This document shows, piece by piece, positions 5,603 to 22,259 of a stretch of DNA of 24,153 bases (positions are counted from its first letter, which is position 1; each line of letters begins with the position of its first letter). The DNA lies in the IMG/VR virus record IMGVR_UViG_3300025162_000174, positions 1 through 24,153 of that record; one strand, 5' to 3'. The notes below the pieces were generated by a model that was not told the DNA's origin, did no database searches, and saw nothing but the letters and a program-made list of their open reading frames with translations. Source of the DNA: a virus. A program made the translations under genes and the position numbers.

Positions 5603-5760
5603 TCGAGGCCGACATGCAAGAGCACTATCACATCGATATGAGCGCCCCGGGCCTGGTTGACCAGCGCTCGGGGCGCTGGCTACGAGTTCGGATACTCGGA
5701 CTGCTCGGTATTGATTCACGTTTACGCTTCGCTCTGTTTCCTCCGGAAGAAGGTACGTGA
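5084..5760 (+). CDS. Tail assembly chaperone, -1 frameshift product (gpGT-like)
   Basis: The -1 frame is open from 5443 to a TGA at 5758-5760 and reads as a natural protein: SRWIDRPEDE, WRDILGRWDLIEADMQEHY, HIDMSAPGLV, then GRWLRVRILGLLGIDSRLRF. This is the usual gpT-like extension of phage tail chaperones. It has no SD-led start of its own, and a TAA at 5440-5442 closes this frame just upstream, so it must be reached by slipping between 5443 and 5602. Slipping at 5446-5452 would give about 225 residues. The extension runs to the tape measure start (TGATG overlap). Family behaviour is well known; the exact slip site is inferred. Confidence 0.8.
5446..5452 (+). other. Candidate -1 ribosomal frameshift site
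   Basis: GGGGGAA is read G GGG GAA in the gpG-like frame. A one-base slip keeps full pairing at GGG and allows GAA to re-pair on GGA with a G-U pair in the middle. It lies 4 bases after the -1 frame TAA at 5440-5442, so the extension frame becomes open exactly here. No better heptamer is visible before the zero-frame stop at 5602. It is less canonical than the lambda GGGAAAG. Confidence 0.65.
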
Positions 5761-8700
5761 TGGCACTGACTGTAGGCGAACTCGTAGCGTACCTGGACAT
5801 CAATGATGCTGCTTTTATAGCTAAGCTTGATCGCGATAAAGCAGCGTTGACAGGTATGGCTGCTGAGACTCAGATGACTTGGTCTAAAGCTGCTACGGCT
5901 GCTGGTATTACGGGTGGCGTTATCGCGGCAGCCATTGGACTAAGCGCTAAGTCTTACGGTAACTTCGCTCTGCAGTCTGCTAAGTTTCAAGCTCAAACTA
6001 GTATGACTGCTGAAGGAGCTTCTCGACTGGTCGGCCAGTTCCAGATGATGTTCGTCAAAGGCAACGTTACGAGCATGGCCATGAAGACGTTGGAGAAGTC
6101 GCTATACGGCTTGCAATACGGTGAGAAGGTAGCGGCAGATGCCTATGAGCATCTAGGTCTTACCTGGCAGGACTTGAAAGACCTCAAGCCGGAAGAACAA
6201 ATTGCTCTTATCAGGGACCGGTTGTCGGAGACGGTAGACCCGGCTACTAGATCAGGAGCTGCGACTCTGATACTAGGACGTGGTGCAGCTTCCATGGCGT
6301 TGTGGTATTCGGCTTCTGCTACGCAGATTGATAAGGTCAACGCTGCCCTCGAACGTAACGGTCAAATACTCAATCAAGATCAGTTGGATGCTGCTAAACA
6401 GTCATTGATCGCATGGCAGAACCTTGTCGGTGCCTTCAAGGGTCTTGAGTACGCGATAGGTAAAGCCGTAATACCGCAGTTGACTAACTTGGCTAAGGCT
6501 CTAGCGGTCGTATTCAATATCTTACGACCCTTCGCAGGAGTACTATGGCCTGTCGCTACCGCTTTGATCGCTTTCGCTGTAGCCGTCAAGGGCGCTATCT
6601 TCGTTCAGACTACATGGGGACAAGCCGCTGCGCTTATGGGACGAGGTATAGTAAGTACTACGACGTCTCTCGCTTTGGAGACTACAGCACTTGAAGCAGA
6701 GACTTTAGCGCTCAAAGCTAACGCGGCAGCGTTAGCTACTAGAGGTAGTGCTGCTGCTGCAGGTGCTACTATACATACGATGCCTATCGTGCCTTTCACA
6801 GGCTTCGGCCTGGCAGGCATGGCTCTCATGAGCGCTGGAGGCGCGGGAGTAGAAGTACGTAATCTGCCAGATCAGATGGTACGCGACTTGGAGAAAGCGG
6901 AGCCTGAACTCAAGTCTGCTATCAAGTCGTTTCAAGATATAATGGCAGGTATAAACGACGTACAACCAGGCGCTGAAGGTGAGAAGGCTCTCGAAGATTA
7001 CATGAATCAGCTACGCAAGTTGCGTGATCAGTTCCCCGGTACTCAACTAGCTAAGGATATACAAGCGTTACTCGATCAAGTGAATAAGACTAAGCCTGCT
7101 TTCGAAGAAGCCTCAGCCGCTGCGATCGCGTGGGCTAAGGTTATCGGAGACATAATCAACGTACAGATTCCAGGCATGTCCGGTCCGATAGCGATGACGA
7201 AGGGACAGGCAGTACTGAGCGGCTGGATGGACCAAGCAGGCAATATGCTCAAGGGCGCTACGCTCGTTGAGGATATCAAGAAGACAGCGCAGGAGACTGC
7301 TGCCGCAGGCGCAGATCTAGCGCTCAAGCTTGCTTCCATCCCGAAGAATATCAAGCAGGTACTCAATCGTGATTGGGTTGGCATAGGCGCTGCTTTCCAG
7401 AAGGCTATGCTAGAGTTCAATCAGGGTATGAGTGCTGGAATGAGTGACGCTTTAGTAGCTGCTTACGCGACTCGTGTCTCTAACCTCGCTTCTATCGCTT
7501 CCTCGTTGGGTACTGTACTCAAGTCTCTATCGGACGCTCCCAAGAAGGTCATTAGTCCTACTAGGCAGAACTGGACTGCTTTAGGTCAGGCATTACTCGT
7601 AGGTGTTTACGAGATTTTAGCTGTCTTCTCTTCCCTCGACGATAAGATGCTCGATACTGAGGGTACGCGTATGGGGTCCATCGGGTCGATGGCTGGAGGA
7701 CTTGGTAGCTTTATCGGTGCTCTCAGTAAGATGCCTAAGAAAGCTGTTAGTCCTACTAAGCAGGCTTGGACTTCGCTAGCTAATGTACTCAGAGTATCTA
7801 TTGCAGAAGTATTAGCAGTCTTCAACGATTCCAAGAACAAGGACTTGGCTAAGCAAGCTACGCGCGCTGGCTCTGTAGGGTCCATGGCTGGCGGCTTGGG
7901 CTCCTTCATCGACGCTTTGTCAAGCATGCCGAAGAAGGCTACTAAGGTAATACCTCAAGCTTGGACTAGTTTAGCTCAGGTATTGTCGGCTGCTCTCGCG
8001 TTGGTACTCAAGGTATTCGAGAGTCCTACAGCTAAGCAACTAGCCTCTACCGCTACTCGTATGGGTAGTGTAGGGTCCATGGCTGGAGGACTCGGCTCCT
8101 TCATCAGTGCACTATCCAGTATGCCAGATCATGCTGTCTCAGTTATTCCGCAGAAGTGGCAAGCGTTAGCTCGAGTTATCGAGGCTGCGGTAACCGAAGT
8201 ACTTACTGCTTTCAAGGAAGCTACTACTAAGCAGCTGGGTGATACTACTACGCGTGCTGGAGACGTCGGTAGTATAGCAGGCGCGCTAGGTAGTATAATC
8301 GATTTCTTCGTTAGCGCACCTACGGAGGCTGTAACTGTCGTACCGCAGAAATGGCATGCTCTTGCTTCCGCTATCAGAAGTGCGATTACGGAAGTCATGG
8401 AGGTCTTCGTTACCGTTGCTGATAAGCTACTGGGTACGCAAGCAGACCGCATGGGCAAAATCGCTACGTTGGCTGGGGCGTTGGGAGATATTCTCAGCTT
8501 CTTCGCTAATGCTCCTGCATCTGTACTCTCTGTTACTGAGCAGAATTGGACAGCCTTTGGAGCCGCGTTAGCTACAGCTATCGATAATATCCTGTCTCAG
8601 TTCGACAGGTGGGACGACAAAGCGTTGGAGAAGCTGAGTACTAGATCAGGCTTCATCTCTACGATGGTCCAACTGGTACAGGATATCGCTAACCTAGCTG

Positions 8701-9146
8701 CCAGTCTACCTGACTTGACGAGCAATCTACAAGAATTCAGTCGTATGAGTTTGAGCTTCGGGGATATGTGGACGAATATAGGTAATGCGCTGGCTCAGAT
8801 GATAGACGCTATCGCTGGAGCGTTAGACCATTTGCCAGGCATGACTCGTATGAAGGAAGCTCAGGAAGCGATAAGTACGTTGAGCGATATCTTCTCGTCT
8901 ATGTCTGCTATCTCACAGAGCCTTTACAGCGGCGGTTATACTACACCCACAGTTCCTCTACCTACTACTGCTACTAATAACAGTAGTGGAGCTCCTGCCT
9001 TGTCAGGAGCTGGAGGCGATACTTATATCGTACAGTGGTCTACATTTACGAGTACTCCGTCCGCTCGTGAAGCTAATGAACTAGTCGATCTACTAGAGCC
9101 TATCTTGACTAAGCGTAAAGTACGTAAAGCGGGGTCAGCCTTCTGA
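5760..9146 (+). CDS. Tape measure protein
   Basis: A 1128-residue protein, the longest helical protein of the tail module, directly after the chaperones. Residues 1-80 include the Ala/Gly-rich hydrophobic segment AGITGGVIAAAIGL; residues about 235-275 hold a second set of hydrophobic stretches (LRPFAGVLWPVATALIAFAVAV), as usual for tape measure proteins. Residues 597-986 are six tandem 65-residue repeats. No lytic transglycosylase or peptidase motif is seen. I start at ATG 5760, which shares its A with the previous TGA and has GAAGAAGG a few bases upstream; a GTG at 5757 is the alternative. By the usual rule of about 1.5 angstrom per residue the tail would be roughly 170 nm; this is inference. 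Confidence 0.9.
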   Translation: MALTVGELVAYLDINDAAFIAKLDRDKAALTGMAAETQMTWSKAATAAGITGGVIAAAIGLSAKSYGNFALQSAKFQAQTSMTAEGASRLVGQFQMMFVKGNVTSMAMKTLEKSLYGLQYGEKVAADAYEHLGLTWQDLKDLKPEEQIALIRDRLSETVDPATRSGAATLILGRGAASMALWYSASATQIDKVNAALERNGQILNQDQLDAAKQSLIAWQNLVGAFKGLEYAIGKAVIPQLTNLAKALAVVFNILRPFAGVLWPVATALIAFAVAVKGAIFVQTTWGQAAALMGRGIVSTTTSLALETTALEAETLALKANAAALATRGSAAAAGATIHTMPIVPFTGFGLAGMALMSAGGAGVEVRNLPDQMVRDLEKAEPELKSAIKSFQDIMAGINDVQPGAEGEKALEDYMNQLRKLRDQFPGTQLAKDIQALLDQVNKTKPAFEEASAAAIAWAKVIGDIINVQIPGMSGPIAMTKGQAVLSGWMDQAGNMLKGATLVEDIKKTAQETAAAGADLALKLASIPKNIKQVLNRDWVGIGAAFQKAMLEFNQGMSAGMSDALVAAYATRVSNLASIASSLGTVLKSLSDAPKKVISPTRQNWTALGQALLVGVYEILAVFSSLDDKMLDTEGTRMGSIGSMAGGLGSFIGALSKMPKKAVSPTKQAWTSLANVLRVSIAEVLAVFNDSKNKDLAKQATRAGSVGSMAGGLGSFIDALSSMPKKATKVIPQAWTSLAQVLSAALALVLKVFESPTAKQLASTATRMGSVGSMAGGLGSFISALSSMPDHAVSVIPQKWQALARVIEAAVTEVLTAFKEATTKQLGDTTTRAGDVGSIAGALGSIIDFFVSAPTEAVTVVPQKWHALASAIRSAITEVMEVFVTVADKLLGTQADRMGKIATLAGALGDILSFFANAPASVLSVTEQNWTAFGAALATAIDNILSQFDRWDDKALEKLSTRSGFISTMVQLVQDIANLAASLPDLTSNLQEFSRMSLSFGDMWTNIGNALAQMIDAIAGALDHLPGMTRMKEAQEAISTLSDIFSSMSAISQSLYSGGYTTPTVPLPTTATNNSSGAPALSGAGGDTYIVQWSTFTSTPSAREANELVDLLEPILTKRKVRKAGSAF
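7548..8717 (+). repeat. Six tandem 195-bp (65-residue) repeats in the tape measure gene
   Basis: Six units with the same 65-residue length and no gaps start at 7548, 7743, 7938, 8133, 8328 and 8523. Each has W at unit position 9 (WTALGQAL, WTSLANVL, WTSLAQVL, WQALARVI, WHALASAI, WTAFGAAL), TR near 40-41 in most, and an AGGLGSF or AGALG block near 49-55. Units 1-3 are most alike, units 4-5 form a second group, and unit 6 is the most diverged. A looser copy (residues about 539-596, with WVGIGAAFQK) precedes the array with a one-residue length difference, and a weak one (WTNIGNALAQ) follows. Confidence 0.9.
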
Positions 9147-11209
9147 TGATTTGGTCTCGTGATGATAGAGTACTGATAGCTTGGGACGATATGCGAGGTC
9201 CGTCTTGGCGTAACTCGGATGAGCCTATGTTCCGGCACTATATTGTTTATCGTGACGGTCAGGAGCTTGATCGTACGTACGCGGAAGCTTACTTGGACAT
9301 TGACGTATTGCCCGCTAGGCATTATCGCTATGAAGTATTCGGAACGAATGAAGCTAATGAGTCGGAAACTGAGATGATATCGTGTTTCGAGGTCAGTACT
9401 ACTTCTCGTCCAGTCCTGGACTTGTGTTCCCCTACGCCTCCTACAGGTTTGTCCGCTGATGGTACGCCTGCTGGTATATTGTGGCAGTGGAACCCTAGTA
9501 CTAAACTGGAAGTCACGGACTTGCTGGGCTACATAATCGAGAGGGATGACGTAGGCTATGTAGGACCTGCTCGAGCTATGATATGGGAAGGTAGTCCGAC
9601 TGTCTCTTGGGAAGAGAAGGTGCCGACCGGACAAGCTCGTTGTTATCGCGCTCGCGCTATCGATAAGAACCTCAACGTCTCCGAGCCGTCAGATATAGTT
9701 GTAGGCGTGGCCGGTAGTGGTGGCTGGCGTGCTTATACGTTTACGCAAGACATGGATTTTACTGTCGATAGTGCTGTACGAGGTGTCGACGTCTTGCTGG
9801 TGGCGGGTGGAGGAGCTGGTGGTGGCGGTATTATGGGTGGCGGTGGAGGCGCTGGGGGCTTCGTAGACGTTCATAATCTCACTATACGTCCAGGTGTAAA
9901 CGACGGTCCTGTTGTAGTAGGACAAGGCGGTAGTACAGTAGAGTGGGATAATCCTATGGATACACCCGAACTGCGTTACGCAGCTATGGGTAAGAACTCT
10001 TCGTTCGGAGGCTTAGTTGCTTATGGTGGAGGCTATGGAGGCCGTGTACAGGGTATCGCTAATTACCGTGCAGCTAATGGAGGCTCTGGTGGAGGCGCTA
10101 TCCCAGATGTACAAGATTACTGGGCGCAACCTGGCGATTATGGCGGCAATCATTACGTTGGAATCCCTGGAGCAGCTGTTCATAATACTGACGAATTCGT
10201 ACTAAGTGACGCAGAGGTAGTTGCTCAAGGCGAGACTAATCCTATTAGGTGCTACATGATTCCAGATATAGTCGACGTAGATCATCCTCCAGAAGCAGAC
10301 TTCGTTATTTCGTGCTCAAACGCTTTTGACATAAAGTTTTACGGAGCGTCTTACGCTTTTACAGACACGGGCATGGCAGATGAATTAGTAGACTATACGG
10401 CGTTATCGCAGCCTTCTACTTACGAACGCGCTTTCGTCATTCCGATAGTCGACGGCTATAATTATCGTATAGCTCCAGTAGTTACGAACCTAGGTCCCGG
10501 TTCATGTATCGTCTCTATTCGAGCTACAGGTAAGGGTCCGGATATGGAACAAGGTCATTCTGGCGGCGTGGGTTCCTCGTGGGATGCGTGGTTGAATCAC
10601 ACTTGTGGCGGCGGAGGCGGGTCTCAATGGCCCGCTAACGGTGGTTGGGGACGTAATGGCGGTCTCGGGCGTCCTTGCGATATTGCAGGTAAGGGACCAT
10701 ATTGGAAGTATATAGACTGGTCTCTCGTACAATGGTATGGTGGTGGTGGCGCAGGTAAAGAGCGTCCAAATTTATGGAGTAATCCGGATGGTCAGCCAGG
10801 TTACGGTGGTGGCGGAGGATGCGGAAGTCCAGGTGACCTTCATACTGGTGGCGGTGGCGGCGGAGGAGGTTGGCTCGGTTTCGGCATGCCTAATGGTCAG
10901 GCTCCAGGGCCTCTAGGAGGCTCGGGCGTCGTAGTAATACGCGTTCCATTGCTGTATATCGATAAAGTTACTGCACCTTTGCAGGAGCGTAATGAAGACG
11001 GTTCTCTGAAGGTAGTTACTGTGCATAACGTTTTCGCGGATGCTGATGAAGATATTCCTGTGTATCCTACAGGCGTCACTGTCAAAGACCTTGAAGCCGA
11101 CGAGACGCATGACGATCAGATGGGAGATCTCGACGAGGCAGTCATTTGGGCTTGGCCTTACGATCATTTCCATCATTGGGGTTGGGAAGGTAATACGCCC
11201 GGTATGTAA
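9146..11209 (+). CDS. Tail-tip protein with FnIII-like and glycine-rich adhesin domains
   Basis: A 687-residue protein. Residues 1-90 and 98-190 are two FnIII-like segments (RVLIAWDDMRG...HYIVYRDGQEL...YRYEVFGTN and GILWQWNPSTK...GYIIERDD...CYRARAIDK). Residues about 212-600 are a glycine-rich domain that begins VDVLLVAGGGAGGGG and ends GGSGVVVIRV, the boundary pattern of phage Gly-rich adhesin domains. That domain is split by a non-Gly-rich insert at about 342-469. The C-terminus (655-687) is acidic, then Trp/His-rich (AWPYDHFHHWGW). ATG 9146 shares its A with the tape measure stop. Position and domains fit a baseplate-proximal receptor-binding or tail-tip protein; the receptor is unknown. 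Confidence 0.75.
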   Translation: MIWSRDDRVLIAWDDMRGPSWRNSDEPMFRHYIVYRDGQELDRTYAEAYLDIDVLPARHYRYEVFGTNEANESETEMISCFEVSTTSRPVLDLCSPTPPTGLSADGTPAGILWQWNPSTKLEVTDLLGYIIERDDVGYVGPARAMIWEGSPTVSWEEKVPTGQARCYRARAIDKNLNVSEPSDIVVGVAGSGGWRAYTFTQDMDFTVDSAVRGVDVLLVAGGGAGGGGIMGGGGGAGGFVDVHNLTIRPGVNDGPVVVGQGGSTVEWDNPMDTPELRYAAMGKNSSFGGLVAYGGGYGGRVQGIANYRAANGGSGGGAIPDVQDYWAQPGDYGGNHYVGIPGAAVHNTDEFVLSDAEVVAQGETNPIRCYMIPDIVDVDHPPEADFVISCSNAFDIKFYGASYAFTDTGMADELVDYTALSQPSTYERAFVIPIVDGYNYRIAPVVTNLGPGSCIVSIRATGKGPDMEQGHSGGVGSSWDAWLNHTCGGGGGSQWPANGGWGRNGGLGRPCDIAGKGPYWKYIDWSLVQWYGGGGAGKERPNLWSNPDGQPGYGGGGGCGSPGDLHTGGGGGGGGWLGFGMPNGQAPGPLGGSGVVVIRVPLLYIDKVTAPLQERNEDGSLKVVTVHNVFADADEDIPVYPTGVTVKDLEADETHDDQMGDLDEAVIWAWPYDHFHHWGWEGNTPGM

Positions 11210-11221
11210 AGGAGCTATAGA

Positions 11222-11338
11222 ATGAAAGCTGGAGAGGAAGACGAAGTGCTTATAGGTATCAAAGTGAAGATGAAGGGTCGAGGCGTCGTGATCAATCCTC
11301 CGGAGACGGAAGAGACTACAGAAGAAGGAGAAGAATAA
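11222..11338 (+). CDS. Small acidic 38-residue protein, function unknown
   Basis: ATG 11222 follows AAAGGAG at 11208-11214 with a 7-base spacer, an excellent site, and the ORF ends in TAA at 11336-11338 that shares an A with the next ATG. The product begins MKAGEEDEVLIGIKVKMKG and ends with a run of Glu/Thr (EETTEEGEE). The tight fit between two tail genes, the strong SD and the coupled stop/start argue that it is translated. Its strand-like centre and acidic tail suggest a small structural or bridging protein, but no family is recognised. Confidence 0.72.
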   Translation: MKAGEEDEVLIGIKVKMKGRGVVINPPETEETTEEGEE

Positions 11339-11781
11339 TGGCTGCTCATCATTGTCGTATCTCTCAGGTCGCTGCCGTCGCTATGTGTAACGCGTTGGTA
11401 GATCTGATCGACGCAGGTTCTCCGCCCGGCCATATCATTCTTTATACAGGTACTGAGCCTACACACGCTAACGATGCTGCAGGTACTGAGGTCGCGACGT
11501 GTACTCTGAACGCTACAGCATTTAGCGCCGCTTCTTACAACGGTACGAATCATGCTGCTGAGGCTACGTTGACGGCTACTGCTACGGACGCGGAAGCTAC
11601 AGGTAATGTTGCAGCTGTTACGTATTTTCGTATCTGTAATGCGGCAGGTACTGCGATCTTGCAAGGTACATGCTCTGCTACTTCTGGTGACGATCTCGTT
11701 CTCACCACTGCAGTTATCGCTACGAACGCTGAAGTCAACATCACTGATCTTACTGTCGCCGTACCGATCGATCAAGCGTAA
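11338..11781 (+). CDS. Conserved virion-type protein, paralogue of the gene at 19364
   Basis: A 147-residue Ala/Thr-rich, beta-rich protein. After a helix (SQVAAVAMCNALVDLIDAG) come GHIILYTGTEP, ATCTLNATAFSAAS, and VTYFRICNAAGTAILQGTCS, then TSGDDLVLTTAVI and a final strand. This 'l.iYtGt.P...da....l....f..' and 's.fRi...dGt.v..G.v.tsg.dl.l....i..g..v.it' order recurs in many phage virion genes of unknown exact role. The second copy at 19364-19795 keeps the same blocks. It starts on the A of the preceding TAA. A tail-tip or fibre-associated role is inferred from neighbours. Confidence 0.65.
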   Translation: MAAHHCRISQVAAVAMCNALVDLIDAGSPPGHIILYTGTEPTHANDAAGTEVATCTLNATAFSAASYNGTNHAAEATLTATATDAEATGNVAAVTYFRICNAAGTAILQGTCSATSGDDLVLTTAVIATNAEVNITDLTVAVPIDQA

Positions 11782-11796
11782 AACAGGAGTAGGGTC

Positions 11797-14700
11797 GTGA
11801 CCTACTTCGGCGAAACCCCGACGACGGACGGTGACTACACCGTCGTCCGCTTCCTGCAGGCGGGCGAGTTCGTCACGCCCTATGGTGTCAGCGAGGGCGA
11901 GGTCCTGATCGTCGGCGGTGGTGGTGGCGGGTCCTGTGGTGGCGGAGGCGGCGGGGGAGTGCTCACCGGCACAGAGTGGGTCAGCGGCACGATGCCCGTC
12001 ACGGTCGGTGATGGAGGGCCAGCGGGCGGTTCTTACGTCCCAGGGACAATCGGTGGCCTCAGTGAGTTCGGCTCTCTCGTTGCCCGCGGTGGTGGCTACG
12101 GAGGCAACTACGGGGCCAGCGGTGGAAACGGCGCCTCGGGCGGCGGCCAAGGCGGCACCGGAGGCGGCGGTGACCACGGACTGGCGACCGGCTCTCCCCT
12201 GCAAGGGTACGACGGAGGCTGCCCAGACTACTCGGCTCCGTACCCCGGCGGCGGCGGCGGCGGCGCCGGAGGAGCAGCAGAGCACAAGGCCGCAGCTACT
12301 TACGGTGGCGCCGGCGGCATAGGAGTCGAGAGCGACATCAGCGGAGCCACTGTCGGCTACGGCGGTGGCGGAGGCGGCGGGACGTTCCAGGGCACCGACG
12401 TTGCCAAAGTCGGTACGGCTTCGCATGGTGGCGGCGCGGGCGCTATCGCTGGCTACGCTGGAGTTCCAGGTACTGCGAATACCGGCGGTGGCGGAGGCGG
12501 CGGGGGAGATGGGTACGGTGGTGGAGCCGGCGGCTCCGGCATCGTCGTCATCCGCTACCTCACCCTTCGTATAGGGGCTGTCTCTACAGCACCAGTTGCC
12601 ATTGTGTCTGGTTCTGGTACCATTCTCACCCATAGTGCTGTCTCTACAGCACCAGTTGCCATTGTGTCTGGTTCTGGTACCATTGTCGACAGTTTCCCTG
12701 AGATCACGATTGATGGTGAGTATACAGTATGGGAGTTCGCTACTCCTGGTAACGGTAGATTTGTAGTACCTCCTGCTCCTGATGGTCATCTAACTGCTGA
12801 GGTTCTAATTGTTGCTGGTGGTGGTGGAGGCGGTACGGCCGTTTCTGGCGGTGGGGCTGGCGGTGGAGCTGGCGGTTATCTTGCATATTCTAGTGTAGAT
12901 ATTTATGCCAATACAGATATCCTTATAGGGCGGGGCGGTGCTGCTCAAGAGAATGGCTTGAATAGTTCTTTTGCAGATCTTGTTGCTATTGGCGGTGGAG
13001 CCGGCAGTCATTCTTATGATACTGGTGTAGGCCAATATGGTGGTTCTGGTGGCGGCACTGAAGGTAGTGCTTTTGGCGGCGCTGGCGGTTTAGGGGAGCC
13101 AGGACAGGGATATGACGGTGGTGGTGGTTCCGATTATTCTGCGCATTATCCCGCCCGTGGCGGCGGTGGCGGTGGTGCTGGTGGAGTGGGCCAGCATGGC
13201 AGTGGTACTCATGAAAGCGATACCACTACTCATGCTGAGGGCGGTGTAGGTGTAGCCAACGATATCACAGGTTCGTCTGTTACTTATGCCCATGGTGGTC
13301 AGGGTGCTCCGTTCTTGGCTGGTGATGGTGCTGATGGTGTAAATCCTGGAGATGGTGGTGACGGTACTTGGGGTGGTACCCCTGGCTCAGGTGCCTCTGG
13401 TATTGTAGTTATCCGCTTCTTGACTCCGACTATTTATGGTTCTCTTACTACTGCCGCTTCTCAAGTTAGCGGTGCTGTACTTGTTCATAATATATATGGG
13501 GCTTACGGTCGTCTTGATGTTGCAGCCGCTAAGTTTGATCCCGCTGGTGCCGGTGGAGGTAATTGGTCTTCTGTAGAAGGAAAGCTTATTGCTCCTTCCG
13601 CTATCGTACATGGCTGGGGCTCTGAGCCTGTTTACGTAGATTATGGCGCTATGCGCTCCGGACGTACTAATGTAGCAGGTCTCGGTGCGATCGTTCCTTA
13701 TACTGGGGAACAGCTAGGACACGGTAAGTCTACTATCGAAGCTGCGCGTATTTACGGTGTAGGCAATTGTAATCTCGATGGCGTACTTCCGCCGCCTGAC
13801 GTGCCTCCGGTGCCGATAATCACTTGGCCTCCATTGCCTCGAACTACTTTACTGGAGAAGGGCCTACATACGCTTATCGGTAAGATAGCTGTGAGTATTG
13901 GCGGCGTGAACTATACTCCGTACGCAGAGAACCTGGAGTGTGATTCTAACGTAAGCGGTGGTTACGGTACTTGTACTATGTTATTGAGGCCTCCTACCCC
14001 TGTACCGAATTTTGATGATGAAGTACTCGTAACGTGCGATACAGGCGAGATATGGCGTGGCAAGGTCGTCAATACTCCGGGTATTACGTATACAGGCGAA
14101 TTCGCACGATTCCAAGTAGTCGCGGAAGGTCCAGCGAAGGAACATGGACGCCGAGAAGACTTCTCGTGGACAGGTAGCGATTCTAATGTAGGTAGTTGGA
14201 AGCAGCTTGATTGTCAGAACTGGAACTCACCTGCAGGCAGTAAAGGCTTTCAGATAAGTGCAGATACGGCTAATGGCTTGAGATTCCAGAGCGCAGACCT
14301 GGAGATAGGTGCTCGTCCGTCTCATTACTTTACACCGTCGGAAGCAGCCGTGCATTATGACTACTACGGTAACCATCCTTCGGATATACCTGCGCTTTCG
14401 CACTTAGAAGGTCAAACTGCTTGGCAAGGCGATTGTCCGGCTCCTGAGATACTATGGTCCGCTCATTACTATCAGATAGGTGATGGCCTATCGAAAGAGA
14501 AGGCTACGGGTCTTACCGCTAAGGCTAGGTACGACTTCCGTACTCCTATCATAGACGCATTGACGATAGCGAACCTAGACGCAGGTACCCGTAAGGTACT
14601 AGAGGACTGGCCTCTTGATTGGGCTTGGGCCGACTATGAGCAGATCAACGTATGGACAGACTTCTATAAGATGCCAACGCCTGGCTCGCTTTGGGCAGGC

Positions 14701-15963
14701 TTATATGTCTGCGATGAGCCTTGGCAACTTCCTGTGCAGGACCCTGTCGCAATGTTGACGGACCCTCATTGCGTCAAGCTATTCGAACGTACTGCGTTGG
14801 GTAAGCAGTTCACTACTCCTGCAGTCTATTCTAAGGTAGACCCAGTAACAGGCTTGCCTATTGACCCAGTTACTCAGCCTGAAGCTTACGCTAATGGTGA
14901 TTACGTATGGGACGAGAACGGCTATCCTGTCGTTCTGCTTGAAGCGGACGATGACGTACTTACTCTTAGTTTCAGCGGTAAGATGATCGTCTTCTACAGT
15001 ACCTTCAAGGTTATGCAGCATCCTTACTCTTCTAATTACGGATGGCAGACTCTGTTAGCGCCCCATCAAGTACGTCCTACTCCGCCTAAGTGGAAGAACT
15101 GGTATGCTGCTAATGAGATGTATAGCGAGGGTAAGCAGTTCGTGGAGCTACGCGAAGTCAAGGTACTCGCTAACGGTCTACTATCTGGCCCGGGCGACCT
15201 TACAGCTGCTATCGTAGCAGCTTCCGGTGGAGGCGATATTAGTGTTCTTACTGTCAAGGATGGCGTCGATGTCAAGATAGACCCTTTCATGACAGATCTT
15301 GCGGCTATAGAGACTCTCGTAGGCATGAGTGCCGAGACTCTATATTGGGGGTGGGATCCAACGTTCTTCTGTACGCCTGTTAGAGGTACGTACGCGTTGG
15401 ACGGTACTCAGCCAGGCGTTACAGTATCTGCTGGTATCAAGAATGAGGGTACGATCGATACTGCTACTGTTATCTATTCTGATAGCTCTAATCCTACAGA
15501 GAATAGGCGAGTCCTAGCCGCATGGGTGCCTAAGAGTATGACTTTCGACGTCAATGGTGACCAAGTCGCCCTACTGGGGCTCAATTCAGAGTCCAGTGAA
15601 TACAGCGGCCTCATTGACGGTAGTTACCGACTACATAAGGCAGCGGCAGCTGCTGACGCTGCCCAGTCATATATCGTACAGCGTGGCATCTCTGGTGATG
15701 GCCCTCAATGGGAAGGCACAGTTACGCTCATCGGCATCAAGGGTGCAGCTACTATGAAGGTAGGTTGCGCTCTGAATGTAGGAGACGTAAGTGGAGCTAT
15801 CATTACGGCCGTGAAGTTGAATGTAGATACAGATACCGTAACGCTGTCGCTTGGCGGTACAGGCTATCAGGGACGGTTCCCCGATATCGTAGGTCGCGCT
15901 AATTCAGCTGCTCCTGCTAATGCGCTTCAGCGTCCGCCACTACCGTACAAGACAGGGAGGTGA
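11797..15963 (+). CDS. Large tail-tip (hub-like) protein with two N-terminal glycine-rich domains
   Basis: A 1388-residue protein. Residues about 33-256 are a first glycine-rich domain (VLIVGGGGGGSCGGG to SGIVVIRYL). Residues 261-296 hold two copies of AVSTAPVAIVSGSGTI. Residues about 305-545 are a second glycine-rich domain (VLIVAGGGGGG to SGIVVIRFL). A Pro-rich linker (VLPPPDVPPVP, about 663-673) leads to a C-terminal half with no low complexity: about 690-790 reads as a beta-rich tail hub segment (IGKIAVSIGGVNYTPYAE, DDEVLVTCDTGEIWRGKV, ARFQVVAEGP), and 1170-1388 as a second structured part. I infer a baseplate hub or minor tail protein fused to two adhesin domains. GTG 11797 follows CAGGAG. 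The first Gly-rich domain uses far more G/C-ending codons than the rest. Confidence 0.72.
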   Translation: MTYFGETPTTDGDYTVVRFLQAGEFVTPYGVSEGEVLIVGGGGGGSCGGGGGGGVLTGTEWVSGTMPVTVGDGGPAGGSYVPGTIGGLSEFGSLVARGGGYGGNYGASGGNGASGGGQGGTGGGGDHGLATGSPLQGYDGGCPDYSAPYPGGGGGGAGGAAEHKAAATYGGAGGIGVESDISGATVGYGGGGGGGTFQGTDVAKVGTASHGGGAGAIAGYAGVPGTANTGGGGGGGGDGYGGGAGGSGIVVIRYLTLRIGAVSTAPVAIVSGSGTILTHSAVSTAPVAIVSGSGTIVDSFPEITIDGEYTVWEFATPGNGRFVVPPAPDGHLTAEVLIVAGGGGGGTAVSGGGAGGGAGGYLAYSSVDIYANTDILIGRGGAAQENGLNSSFADLVAIGGGAGSHSYDTGVGQYGGSGGGTEGSAFGGAGGLGEPGQGYDGGGGSDYSAHYPARGGGGGGAGGVGQHGSGTHESDTTTHAEGGVGVANDITGSSVTYAHGGQGAPFLAGDGADGVNPGDGGDGTWGGTPGSGASGIVVIRFLTPTIYGSLTTAASQVSGAVLVHNIYGAYGRLDVAAAKFDPAGAGGGNWSSVEGKLIAPSAIVHGWGSEPVYVDYGAMRSGRTNVAGLGAIVPYTGEQLGHGKSTIEAARIYGVGNCNLDGVLPPPDVPPVPIITWPPLPRTTLLEKGLHTLIGKIAVSIGGVNYTPYAENLECDSNVSGGYGTCTMLLRPPTPVPNFDDEVLVTCDTGEIWRGKVVNTPGITYTGEFARFQVVAEGPAKEHGRREDFSWTGSDSNVGSWKQLDCQNWNSPAGSKGFQISADTANGLRFQSADLEIGARPSHYFTPSEAAVHYDYYGNHPSDIPALSHLEGQTAWQGDCPAPEILWSAHYYQIGDGLSKEKATGLTAKARYDFRTPIIDALTIANLDAGTRKVLEDWPLDWAWADYEQINVWTDFYKMPTPGSLWAGLYVCDEPWQLPVQDPVAMLTDPHCVKLFERTALGKQFTTPAVYSKVDPVTGLPIDPVTQPEAYANGDYVWDENGYPVVLLEADDDVLTLSFSGKMIVFYSTFKVMQHPYSSNYGWQTLLAPHQVRPTPPKWKNWYAANEMYSEGKQFVELREVKVLANGLLSGPGDLTAAIVAASGGGDISVLTVKDGVDVKIDPFMTDLAAIETLVGMSAETLYWGWDPTFFCTPVRGTYALDGTQPGVTVSAGIKNEGTIDTATVIYSDSSNPTENRRVLAAWVPKSMTFDVNGDQVALLGLNSESSEYSGLIDGSYRLHKAAAAADAAQSYIVQRGISGDGPQWEGTVTLIGIKGAATMKVGCALNVGDVSGAIITAVKLNVDTDTVTLSLGGTGYQGRFPDIVGRANSAAPANALQRPPLPYKTGR
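12577..12684 (+). repeat. Exact 48-bp direct repeat, period 60, within the tail-tip gene
   Basis: Copies at 12577-12624 and 12637-12684 are identical by eye over 48 bases and separated by 12 bases. They encode two AVSTAPVAIVSGSGTI units joined by LTHS. The repeat lies at the junction between the two glycine-rich domains. Perfect DNA identity suggests a recent duplication. Confidence 0.92.
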
Positions 15964-17036: not shown

Positions 17037-17717
17037 ATGACTAAATACGTTATGCACGGTCTTGGACGTTTGCCTTCTCCGCCGGACGCACGCGACTATC
17101 GTATGTCGGATGCTGTACGCGAGCTGGAGAAGGTAAGCGCGCCACGACCTGTCAAGCGTTGGAAGTCTTCCAAGGTACTTGATCAAGGCGAGACGCCGCA
17201 TTGTGTCGGTTTCGCCTGGGCTGGATGGGGCATTAGTGCTCCAATCGAAGACCCTTGGTGTGACCTCACGGGTCACGATATTTACAAGGCATGTAAGGTT
17301 CTCGACGGTGAACCTGATATGCAGAATGGCTCTACGGTACGTACGGGAGCTAAAGTACTGATCGCGCGTAAACGCATCAAGACGTACTTCTTCGCTCAAG
17401 ACGTAGATGAAGCTCTTGACTTCGTAGCTCGCTTCGGTCCTGTCGTTTTCGGTACTATCTGGACTGAAGGTATGTCTAAGCCTTCTTCCGTCGGTCATGT
17501 AATACGCGTTATCGGCAAGGTGCTAGGAGGGCATGCCTATGATGTGGTAGGAGTCGATTCCAAATACGCGCTTATCAAGCAGTCTTGGGGTACAGGATGG
17601 CTCCACAGCGATAGCGGTTACGCGCGTATATTGATCACAGACTTGAAAGCTGCGTTTAGAGAAAGCGGCGAAGCTTGTGCTGCTACCGAACAGCTTTTGC
17701 CGGTCGGAGGCGTGTGA
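17037..17717 (+). CDS. Papain-like cysteine protease (peptidase C1A-type)
   Basis: A 226-residue protein. The N-terminal GRLPSPPDARDYRM (residues 10-23) is the lead motif of microbial and phage C1A-like proteases. DQGETPHCVGFAWAGWG (49-65) carries the oxyanion Gln50 and the catalytic Cys56. GGHAYDVVGVD (164-174) carries the catalytic His166. The third motif reads KQSWGTGW (181-188), so the usual Asn of NSWG is Gln182. There is no signal peptide. It lies 5' of the CHAP endolysin and overlaps it (TGATG), so it may help degrade cell wall peptides or act on host or virion proteins. ATG 17037 follows GCGGGG by 6 bases; an ATG at 17033 stops after three codons. Confidence 0.82.
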   Translation: MTKYVMHGLGRLPSPPDARDYRMSDAVRELEKVSAPRPVKRWKSSKVLDQGETPHCVGFAWAGWGISAPIEDPWCDLTGHDIYKACKVLDGEPDMQNGSTVRTGAKVLIARKRIKTYFFAQDVDEALDFVARFGPVVFGTIWTEGMSKPSSVGHVIRVIGKVLGGHAYDVVGVDSKYALIKQSWGTGWLHSDSGYARILITDLKAAFRESGEACAATEQLLPVGGV

Positions 17718-19139: not shown

Positions 19140-19364
19140 ATGGCAGATCCGACACCGCAGATCCCAGATATCGAGCCCGTCAAACACTGTGGCAGTTGCG
19201 GCAGTACGGAAGGCTTCATCGATTTGCCTCTCGATTACGCAGAGAAGCGCTGGCCGGATGCCACGCACTGGCATGGTCAGCAGCGCACGCAGTGCAAAGC
19301 GTGTGGAGCTACCTTCAACGTCTATGCAATCCACGAAACCGTTAGGGAGCAGGTGAGTGAGTAA
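19140..19364 (+). CDS. Small zinc-ribbon protein
   Basis: A 74-residue protein with two CxxC knuckles, CGSC at 17-20 and CKAC at 52-55, the spacing of a zinc ribbon. The stretch between is rich in Asp/Trp/His. ATG 19140 follows AGGAGAAGG at 19129-19137. Zinc ribbons of this size bind nucleic acid or mediate protein contact; the role here is unknown. It ends in TAA sharing its A with the next ATG, so the two are co-translated. It follows the operator-like gap and may be the first gene of a separate late transcript. Confidence 0.65.
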   Translation: MADPTPQIPDIEPVKHCGSCGSTEGFIDLPLDYAEKRWPDATHWHGQQRTQCKACGATFNVYAIHETVREQVSE

Positions 19365-19795
19365 TGGCACTCGATCCCAAAGTCACCTGGGCGGAAGTCC
19401 AGGCTATGATGGACGCCTTTGGGGCGACCTTCGATACCAGTGGCGTGCTGCGTATCTACGATAACACGGGCGCGGTTCCTACGAACGCGGACGATGCTGC
19501 TAACGTCAACGGTGCAGTTTTGCTCGCAGAGTTGGCGCTGGCTGCAGACGCTTTCGGAGCTTGCTCAGGTGCAGGCGTGATCACTGCTGGTACGATCTCC
19601 AACGATACTTCGGCTAATGCTGGCGGTACGGCTGCCTTCGCTCGTTACTTCAAGACCGGAGGTTCAGTATGTGGCTTCCAGGGCCTCTGTGCCTTGACTA
19701 GTGGTGGCGACTTCAATATCGCTACCTCGCTAGCTATCTCTCTTGGAGCTGTCGTCTCCTGCTCCGCTGCTACGATTACGATGCTCAGGGAATAG
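19364..19795 (+). CDS. Conserved virion-type protein, paralogue of the gene at 11338
   Basis: A 143-residue Ala/Thr/Gly-rich, beta-rich protein. Its blocks GVLRIYDNTGAVPTNADDAA, LLAELALAADAFGAC, NDTSANAGGTAAFARYFKTG and LTSGGDFNIATSLAISLGA match in order those of the 11338 gene (ILYTGTEPTHANDAAG; TCTLNATAFSA; TGNVAAVTYFRICNAAG; SGDDLVLTTAVIATNA). This family is frequent in phages near tail fibres. It sits just before the 811-residue fibre gene, whereas the other copy sits before the 1388-residue tail-tip protein. Cysteines at about 85 and 112 are extra. Confidence 0.65.
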   Translation: MALDPKVTWAEVQAMMDAFGATFDTSGVLRIYDNTGAVPTNADDAANVNGAVLLAELALAADAFGACSGAGVITAGTISNDTSANAGGTAAFARYFKTGGSVCGFQGLCALTSGGDFNIATSLAISLGAVVSCSAATITMLRE

Positions 19796-19823: not shown

Positions 19824-22259
19824 ATGGCATATCGTTCCGTAAGCGGGAACGTCTCGGCGGCGGCGACCGTCGCCGTCACGAAGCCGACCGGCATCATCAA
19901 GGGCGACATCATCATCGCCCATTGTGCCTCCTACCGCTCAACCTCCGCCGCCCCCACGCTGGCCACCATCGCCAACACGGGCGGCTCTGGCGGCGCGTCG
20001 TGGAATACCGTCGTTTCCGTGACCACGGGCACCTACTACAAATCCGCCTACGCTTGGAAGCTCGCCACGACTGACGGCGACGGCACCGTCGTCTCCTACA
20101 CGTGGTCGGCGACCTACGCCGCGAACATGACGGCCGAGGTCATCGTCCTCAGCGGGCGCAAGGCCGTCGCTCCGACGTTCATGGCGACCGCCTATACCAC
20201 GTCGGACACCATCATCCGGGGCGTCAGCGGCCTCACCGCCCTCCTGCACGACGATCTGGTGTGGATGGGCTTCAACTACCGCTCCACCGTGCAGGCGTCC
20301 GTTATGCCCAGCGGCTTCACGAACGGCATCACGGAGACAGCGGCGGCGGCTATCGCTGGCGACATCGCCTACTTGCTTGACCTAGCCGCTGGAGCCGTTG
20401 GAGCGAAGGACGGCTCTATGGCGAACGCCGTCGCCACGAAGCACGCCTTCATGGCGCTCTGTACGCGCCAGATCCTCCCCACGGTGACAAGTCTGGACGT
20501 GACTCACGGCCCGGCCTCCGGCGGTACGTCGGTGACTATCACCGGGACCGGCTTCTACGGGGCTACCGGAGTCACCTTCGGGGGCACGGCGGCGACGAGC
20601 GTGGCCGTGGTCAACGACGCATCCATCACCTGTGTCTCGCCTGCGCACGCCTCCGCCGACAACGTACAGGTGCAAGTCACCGGCCCCGGCGGCTCGTCTG
20701 CGGACGTGGCCGGGGACAACTTCACCTTCGATACCACGTCACTCGCTGCCGCGTCTACCCTGACGGCATTTACATCGTCAAGTGCTAGCCTTTCTTGGAC
20801 GGCTGCTACGGCGACCGCGCTCACTGCCAGCTCCACCCTCACTGCCTTTACATCAAGCGCTGCCAGTGTGAGCTGGCAGGCACAGACTTCGTCGCTAGCA
20901 GCTAGTTCTACGCTTACCGCATTTACATCAGGAAGCGCAAGCCTCTCATGGGTTTCTGCGACTCCGACTACTCTAGCAGCCGCGTCTACATTGACAGCAT
21001 TTACCGCTGCTAGTGCTTCTTTGTCCTGGACAGTCGCTCCGGCCCGAGCCATTACAGCTGCTTCTACTCTTACAGCGTTTACGGCCGGTAGTGCTAGTAT
21101 CTCATGGACAGCTGCCACTGCTACTTCGCTTTCGGCAGCTTCCGCGCTAACAGCGTTCACCGCAGGGTCCGCTTCTCTTTCATGGACTGCGGCACCTGCT
21201 CGTAGCCTTACAGCAGCCTCTACGCTTACAGGTTTCACAGCAGGTTCCGCGTCGCTATCCTGGACGGCAGCGACTGCTACAGCGCTTACCGCTGCTTCTA
21301 CTCTTACAGCGTTCACCTCAGGTAGTGCGAGTCTAGTTAGTATCCCTTCTACGTCGGTAACGGCTACTTCCACTCTAACTGCTTTCGCTACGGGGACTGC
21401 TTCGCTCTCTTGGATAGCCGCTACAGCTACTACGCTAGCCGCTGCGTCTACTATTACAGCATTTGTAGCTGCAGCTGCTTCTCTATCTTGGACTCCTGCC
21501 ACTCAGACTACGCTAACGTCGGCATCTATTCTGACAGCCTTTACGTCTGCTATCGCTTCGCTATCGTGGAGTCCTGCTACTCCTACTTCGCTGTCTGCTT
21601 CCTCTACGCTCACGTCCTTCTTGTCAGGTACGGCTTCGTGTTCATGGAGTCCTGCGGCTCCTACTAGTCTGAGTGCCGCGAGTACGCTGACTGGCTTTAC
21701 GTCTTCGTCTGCTAGCCTAACTAATACTGCGCCTGGTATCCCCGTAACTGGTGATAGTACACTTACAGCTTTCGTGAGCAGTAATGCTAGTCTTACTAGT
21801 ACGCCGGCTACTCCGACAGCTTTGATAGGTGGCTCTACTCTAACGGGCTTCGTAAGTGCTTCGGCTTCGCTGAGTTACTCCGTTTTTACTACGATTACCG
21901 CTGAGAGTACTCTTACTGCTTACGTTTCGTCTAGTGCAGCTCTTTCGCGTATAGCGCCTACAGCAGTTACGGTAACTGCCGCTAGTACTCTATCTGCTAT
22001 CGTTTCATCTAGTGCTTACGTAACTGCTTCAGTCAGTGTTACTATGACTGCTGCGAGCGTACTTACTAGCCATTTGTCAGGTTACTTTGCTGACTATATC
22101 CTAGGTGTTATCGGCCTAACGTCTAGCGGTATGTCTGTAGGTTATGTCTCTACTAGTAATATACGAGGTCTCGTGTCTACGAATGATCGTGGTCTTACAG
22201 ACGTGCCTAGTGAACGAGGTCTGGTGTCCGAAGGACTCAGACGGGGGGAGGAACAATGA
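19824..22259 (+). CDS. Tail fibre or surface protein with TIG domain and 18 Ser/Thr/Ala repeats
   Basis: An 811-residue protein. Residues 1-217 form a beta-sandwich-like N-terminal domain with G/C-ending codons. Residues about 218-303 are an IPT/TIG domain (PTVTSLDVTHGPASGGTSVT, GTGFYGATGVTFGG). Residues 306-757 are about 18 units of 24-26 residues on the theme LTAASTLTAFTSGSASLSWTA. The C-terminus has short RGL repeats (RGLVSTNDRGLTD, SERGLVSEG). There is no signal peptide or membrane span. It lies after the lysis block and is followed by a small beta-rich protein with a 4-base overlap. A long thin fibre or capsid/tail decoration with a terminal domain is inferred. AGAGG 5 bases before ATG 19824 supports the start. 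Confidence 0.7.
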   Translation: MAYRSVSGNVSAAATVAVTKPTGIIKGDIIIAHCASYRSTSAAPTLATIANTGGSGGASWNTVVSVTTGTYYKSAYAWKLATTDGDGTVVSYTWSATYAANMTAEVIVLSGRKAVAPTFMATAYTTSDTIIRGVSGLTALLHDDLVWMGFNYRSTVQASVMPSGFTNGITETAAAAIAGDIAYLLDLAAGAVGAKDGSMANAVATKHAFMALCTRQILPTVTSLDVTHGPASGGTSVTITGTGFYGATGVTFGGTAATSVAVVNDASITCVSPAHASADNVQVQVTGPGGSSADVAGDNFTFDTTSLAAASTLTAFTSSSASLSWTAATATALTASSTLTAFTSSAASVSWQAQTSSLAASSTLTAFTSGSASLSWVSATPTTLAAASTLTAFTAASASLSWTVAPARAITAASTLTAFTAGSASISWTAATATSLSAASALTAFTAGSASLSWTAAPARSLTAASTLTGFTAGSASLSWTAATATALTAASTLTAFTSGSASLVSIPSTSVTATSTLTAFATGTASLSWIAATATTLAAASTITAFVAAAASLSWTPATQTTLTSASILTAFTSAIASLSWSPATPTSLSASSTLTSFLSGTASCSWSPAAPTSLSAASTLTGFTSSSASLTNTAPGIPVTGDSTLTAFVSSNASLTSTPATPTALIGGSTLTGFVSASASLSYSVFTTITAESTLTAYVSSSAALSRIAPTAVTVTAASTLSAIVSSSAYVTASVSVTMTAASVLTSHLSGYFADYILGVIGLTSSGMSVGYVSTSNIRGLVSTNDRGLTDVPSERGLVSEGLRRGEEQ
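20739..22094 (+). repeat. About 18 degenerate repeats of 24-26 codons in the fibre gene
   Basis: By eye there are 17 full units and a partial 18th, in residues 306-757. Most are 26 residues; some are 24 or 25. The core STLTAF is nearly constant and [AS]ASLSW is common; the last third drifts. The DNA is not identical between units, and codon choice moves from G/C-ending at the start of the array to T/A-ending later. Confidence 0.88.

Follow-up and report, generated by a model that had tools for sequence, protein, structure and literature searches.

A codon-usage break at the end of a glycine-rich domain in a putative mosaic tail-tip protein gene of an uncultured phage

Which host a phage can bind depends largely on its adhesin domains. 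In the stretch of viral DNA analysed here (the window, a virus record of 24,153 bases), one open reading frame (ORF), 11797-15963, opens with two glycine-rich domains that differ in their choice of codons, and the question is how these domains came to stand in one gene. A sequence-only reading had proposed the recent join of an imported adhesin domain. The reading favoured here, with a probability of about 0.6, is that the ORF encodes a mosaic siphophage tail-tip protein in which a GC-rich domain 1, the newcomer, is joined at its domain end to a body of low GC3. Recombination between phage lineages would most likely have placed or replaced domain 1, and the low-GC3 body would consist of a short repeated linker, glycine-rich domain 2 and a hub-like tail part. 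Readable in the codons, such a join would be an example of domain-precise adhesin shuffling in an uncultured phage.

Organisation of the locus

The same sequence is found inside a 48,869-base IMG/VR contig, IMGVR_UViG_3300022555_000089 (G001, the parent contig). All stretches compared between the two are 100% identical, so G001 is not necessarily an independent assembly. A siphophage structural module surrounds the ORF, with matches to the families of the major head protein and the major tail protein. The order in the module is a tape measure gene (5757-9146; weak family match, E 4e-7), the gene at 9146-11209, a phrog_3758 gene and ORF 11797-15963. The features are as follows.

9146-11209, plus strand: FN3-like N-terminus and interrupted glycine-rich domain; homologues in both relatives
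11338-11781, plus strand: small gene directly upstream of the ORF, phrog_3758 (virion structural protein)
11797-15963, plus strand: ORF of 1388 codons with a GTG start; glycine-rich domain 1, repeat linker, glycine-rich domain 2, linker, hub-like C-terminal part
11797-12564, plus strand: glycine-rich domain 1 (PF21722); GC3 0.71, model pLDDT 80
12559-12583, plus strand: support interval of the codon-usage break (best position 12565)
12577-12624, plus strand: 48-bp exact direct repeat, copy 1; 16 codons, in frame
12637-12684, plus strand: 48-bp exact direct repeat, copy 2
12688-13431, plus strand: glycine-rich domain 2 (PF21722); GC3 0.29
13432-13833, plus strand: linker with a Pro-rich stretch at its end
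13834-15963, plus strand: hub-like part; 27-30% identity to a separate gene of two relatives, function suggested by position
19824-20765, plus strand: second fibre-like ORF, N-terminal part (TIG domain); GC3 0.86
20766-22256, plus strand: second fibre-like ORF, repeat array (STLTAF / SASLSW units, ~26 aa); GC3 0.37

The name hub-like for 13834-15963 is given by position only, and the label FN3-like for 9146-11209 stands for a sub-threshold Pfam match (E 0.15) together with reading of the sequence. The glycine-rich domain of 9146-11209 is interrupted by an insert of ~120 residues; one glycine-rich domain of the relative C101 (L171) is likewise interrupted, but by a different segment. In the parent contig beyond the window, AMP-binding enzyme, beta-ketoacyl synthase and NAD-dependent epimerase/reductase-like genes are clustered (L010:10620-14185), a cargo unusual for a phage. 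A 908-aa ORF (L010:6639-9365) comprises a uracil-DNA glycosylase domain, a family A DNA polymerase and a 3'-5' exonuclease. The phage records nearest to the large terminase (L011:3373-5352) are the methanogen viruses psiM2 and psiM100 (48-47% over 60%) and Gordonia phages; the best matches leave the first ~200 residues of the terminase uncovered.

The two adhesin-type domains that had been proposed at the start of the ORF both match PF21722 (Gly_rich_2), in two stretches and with 88.2 bits against a gathering cut-off of 24.3. The model of domain 1 and the repeats has a mean pLDDT of 80.4, with low confidence in the repeat linker, and the last strand of domain 1 comprises residues 249-255, ending one residue before the codon-usage break. 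The best solved matches of the domain 1 fold are the fibre of cyanophage Pam3, 7ypx_A (Z 14.3, rmsd 2.6, 173 residues), and the tail tip of mycobacteriophage Bxb1, 9d93 (Z 14.3). The position in the tail module beside the (weakly matched) tape measure gene fits a tail-tip adhesin, and the order is the same in the relatives C101 and G004. On fold and gene order, both glycine-rich domains are putative adhesins on the tail-tip protein; their variable loops probably face the host surface, and the C-terminal part probably anchors the domains to the tail tip.

Codon usage across the join

GC3 is 0.71 in 11797-12570, where glycine is encoded by GGC at 0.52 (n=98), valine by GTC at 0.75 (n=20) and alanine by GCC at 0.39 (n=23). 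The corresponding GC3 in 12691-13431 is 0.29, with GGT at 0.59 for glycine (n=75) and GCT at 0.62 for alanine (n=26), while valine (n=16) is GTA at 0.56 and GTT at 0.38 and GTC is absent. The repeat linker between these regions (12571-12690) has a GC3 of 0.33 and the remainder of the ORF after domain 2 has 0.44. For the whole ORF the maximum-likelihood break is at 12565 (LLR 39.7 vs a highest value of 12.2 in 200 codon permutations); GC3 drops here from 0.71 to 0.28, coinciding with the end of domain 1. The described shift from G/C-ending to T-ending codons across the junction is thereby confirmed. Cutting the ORF at 13596 gave the break an LLR of 57.5 and the support interval listed above, and a second change, from 0.28 to 0.46, is found at 13597.

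Alignment of the two domains gave 114 identical residues out of 224. At these shared residues GC3 is 0.70 in domain 1 and 0.29 in domain 2, and of the discordant sites 59 have G/C in domain 1 where domain 2 has A/T, against 12 with the reverse. The difference is therefore one of synonymous choice, and amino-acid content does not explain it. A 524-codon antisense ORF on the minus strand (11215-12789) extends across domain 1; it is most likely no gene but a shadow cast by the GC-rich codons.

As background, 79 windows of 250 codons were taken from the called genes of at least 200 codons in the 48.9-kb parent contig, minus the two fibre ORFs. GC3 of the parent contig is uneven, with gene values of 0.41-0.78. 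Domain 1 is above 78 of the 79 background windows and domain 2 is below all 79. The sole background window above domain 1 (0.80) is L010:4838-5701, an ORF without a firm family match that may be no gene.

Loci retrieved by pattern matching and by searches, excluding duplicates from the parent contig, were surveyed with a home-made glycine-rich profile; the tandem glycine-rich arrangement itself proved to be common in other phages. The same break was not found in these more distant ORFs. Besides the two in the window, seven ORFs had at least two matched glycine-rich stretches, and within these GC3 differs by at most 0.07, compared with 0.42 in the window (L018, 0.81/0.79; L040, 0.65/0.61/0.63; L057, 0.17/0.20; L139, 0.72/0.69; L145 ORF 15, 0.83/0.87; and L029, 0.11/0.15, and L145 ORF 13, 0.78/0.85, both resembling one domain split by an insert). 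Among 42 glycine-rich ORFs of at least 350 codons the step in the window is second by LLR (40.7), after L098 (45.2). L098 was considered as a second independent join and dropped; its step comes from a Ser/Ala-rich repeat tract.

The direction of the event could be the reverse, with a GC-rich N-terminus that is resident and a low-GC3 linker and domain 2 inserted or replaced between this N-terminus and the hub. The position of domain 2 below every background window would agree with this, as would the second change at 13597, which closes the low-GC3 block, and the longer branch of domain 2 in the tree described below. However, tail parts nearby are also low in GC3 (0.37 in the glycine-rich part of 9146-11209 and 0.44 in the hub), so of the two domains it is domain 2 that matches its surroundings more closely. 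The reverse direction is accordingly regarded as unlikely, and domain 1 as the favoured newcomer.

Relatives, trees and the repeat linker

Two relatives have the tail module in common with the window, at low identity: C101, a contig in a Phycisphaerales MAG titled AlinenSedimentsCore3 (L145, L170, L171), and G004, IMGVR_UViG_3300021075_000001 (L037, L173). The order in both is tape measure, FN3 and glycine-rich gene, separate hub-like gene, 179-codon ORF and glycine-rich fibre ORF. The glycine-rich domain opens the fibre gene in C101 and is preceded by ~230 other residues in G004; the sequence after the domain is different in each phage. The small gene upstream of the relatives' fibre was tried as a homologue of the phrog_3758 genes of the window and dropped, as no similarity was found.

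From residue ~680 on, the window protein is homologous to the separate hub-like gene of the relatives. This part shares one open frame with the glycine-rich part in the window, and the window protein is therefore a fusion, of the putative adhesin with a tail part that has its own gene in the two relatives. The TTG codon at 13834 is in principle a possible internal start, with no evident ribosome site before it by reading. No Pfam, PDB or PHROG match was found for the hub-like part, and its model (pLDDT 31.9) is unusable. A hub profile was run against 392 Planctomycetota genomes and against 114 of the order; it found only G002 itself. A match of 27% over 155 aa (E 2e-4) is suggestive of a similar glycine-rich/hub fusion in L018. 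The L018 contig also has an ORF with 45% identity to the peptidase-like gene at 17037-17717 (phrog_16701); other tail genes are far more distant.

The identities of the three phages differ between parts of the module. For the pairs window-C101, window-G004 and C101-G004 they are 0.27, 0.30 and 0.77 in the hub and 0.32, 0.29 and 0.88 in the FN3 part, but 0.60, 0.57 and 0.51 in the fibre glycine-rich domain, domain 1 in the window (0.41, 0.38 and 0.29 without Gly:Gly columns). Domain 1 is thus no further from either relative than the relatives are from each other, although hub and FN3 are distant. Residues 1-28 of domain 1 are 64% identical to C101 and 79% to G004, and the fibre domain has a GC3 of 0.84 in C101 and 0.80 in G004. 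The first 400 residues of the tape measure ORFs (0.28, 0.24 and 0.33) do not follow the hub and FN3 pattern. The glycine-rich domain of 9146-11209 has a pattern similar to that of domain 1 (0.50, 0.45 and 0.48) without a codon break, which means that such incongruence can arise wherever domains of this type evolve fast or are exchanged. The rapid divergence of glycine-rich domains makes identity a weak guide.

The sharp step at the domain edge and these identities fit an exchange of domain 1 between lineages, and to that extent the proposed domain join stands; the word imported is a reading of codon style, which the trees neither show nor reject. The proposal that the join is recent did not hold. 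Where domain 1 and a relative have identical residues, the codons agree at 67 of 146 sites for C101 (expected 65.3) and at 58 of 126 for G004 (expected 59.1). This is no better than chance, so C101 and G004 are not recent donors and the event is not datable; shared synonymous sites were dropped as proof of recency for the same reason. No close donor for domain 1 was found in the searches run. Searches with tblastn against 50,697 phage records gave no match for the whole ORF 11797-15963, with a low-complexity filter that masks much glycine-rich sequence. The G004 hub-like part, the L018 ORF, the second-fibre N-terminus and the FN3-like part likewise gave no match, with the same filter on. Scans of IMG/VR proteins with the hub and each domain found the parent contig alone.

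An old tandem duplication in place, which would make domains 1 and 2 paralogues whose codon usage drifted apart without import, is somewhat less likely again than the reverse direction. In a tree of 49 rows the two domains are sisters (96/80) within a group of otherwise GC-rich members, with the longer branch on domain 2. This relationship fits duplication and counts against import of domain 1. Motifs common to both domains, such as QGYDGG..DYSA.YP and DI.G..V.Y, and the frequency of tandem copies in other phages point the same way. The pair is, however, not kept in a tree of 25 rows, where p-AU is 0.265 for a grouping of domain 1 with the C101 and G004 domains, which is thus not rejected, and the halves of other tandem ORFs have not diverged in GC3. 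We know of nothing that drives adjoining halves of one gene to GC3 values of 0.71 and 0.29. The trees do not settle the choice between import of domain 1 and old duplication; exchange of domain 1 between lineages is favoured on the codon step and the pattern of identities.

The two copies of the repeat are identical at 48 of 48 bases, in frame and 12 bases apart. The 12-base blocks before, between and after them are unmatched (3-4/12). The identical repeats had been placed exactly between the domains; they are exact and at the junction, but both copies sit at or past the break, on its low-GC3 side, and the break is not between them. A search for degenerate copies of the unit elsewhere in ORF 11797-15963 gave a best score of 32, inside the shuffle range (maximum 39); the best score against 19824-22259 is 29, a value with no shuffle baseline for comparison. 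The linker peptide retrieved only three weak Rhizobium phage records (E 6) among the phage records searched. A 40-bp exact direct repeat (offset 239) is found in the parent contig at L010:4703-4742.

The repeat could be a working site of exchange or slippage, where members of the population would gain and lose adhesin domains or linker units, a possibility compatible with the favoured newcomer domain 1. The pair is the only exact direct repeat of at least 24 bases in the 24-kb window, and the stretch after a glycine-rich or TIG domain varies between phages, often with short repeats. The one other copy of the region that was found, in the parent contig, is 100% identical with both units present, the repeats are confined to one side of the join, and no reverse transcriptase or site-specific recombinase was matched among the parent-contig proteins scanned (small ORFs partly covered), all of which makes such a site improbable. 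The target of a diversity-generating retroelement involves a reverse transcriptase and an adenine-varied repeat; this candidate was rejected, the copies being identical and no reverse transcriptase being matched among the proteins scanned. On the preferred reading, the 48-bp repeat belongs to a flexible linker of the native side, one unit of which was copied or homogenised recently; it is not a proven recombination site.

An assembly chimera of two phages is very improbable, since the frame is open across the join, the join lies on a domain end and the 48.9-kb contig reads the same, even if the sequence represents a single metagenomic lineage and G001 may not be independent.

The second fibre ORF and known systems

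The fibre-like ORF 19824-22259 has a break that is stronger than that in 11797-15963. GC3 is 0.86 up to 20766 and 0.37 after (LLR 100.3, support interval 20727-20769), and the break is close to the start of the array of ~26-aa repeats. The gene upstream of this ORF (19364-19795) is also phrog_3758 and is 30% identical to the gene at 11338-11781. With two joins of this kind in the same phage a one-off accident becomes less likely, although one contig cannot show a system. It is a doubtful extension that at least two tail fibres carry exchangeable GC-rich N-terminal caps (11797-12564 and 19824-20765), each after a phrog_3758 gene and each ending at a phage-specific short-repeat linker, the linker repeats being a standard joining point for adhesin modules and one module being fused to the tail hub.

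Sak4-like annealing proteins promote exchange between diverged sequences. The parent contig encodes a Sak4-like ssDNA annealing protein, which would be a possible agent of the exchange. Literature searches on intragenic mosaicism and codon usage in phage tail fiber genes and on PF21722 found no paper.

Domain-level mosaicism of a phage adhesin is a known and well-described process, and tail-fibre domain shuffling is well documented (PMC10684548). An adhesin role of glycine-rich domains of this type is described in PMC9608196 and PMC6851490: in Pam3 the domain is described as the tip that recognises the host, its stem being conserved and its distal loops variable (PMC9608196), and S16 gp38 is a polyglycine sandwich with hypervariable loops (PMC6851490). 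PMC13252515 mentions polyglycine-rich domains associated with the Bxb1 central fibre protein.

The Pam3 gp24 fibre and the Bxb1 tail-tip chains resemble the window ORF in PF21722 match and fold. The window ORF has two glycine-rich domains in tandem ahead of a hub-like part, whereas in Pam3 gp24 the part in front is an alpha-helical shaft (PMC9608196). Adhesins of the T-even gp38 type, such as that of S16, are like the window ORF in having glycine-rich motifs parted by variable segments, and serve in host recognition (PMC6851490 and PMC9229481); S16 gp38 is not among the fold matches listed, which is no evidence of absence. In tail-fibre mosaicism as presented in PMC10684548, homologous fragments occur with different partners, as in the window ORF. 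Unlike the cases described there, the join in the window is also marked by a step in codon usage at the domain end.
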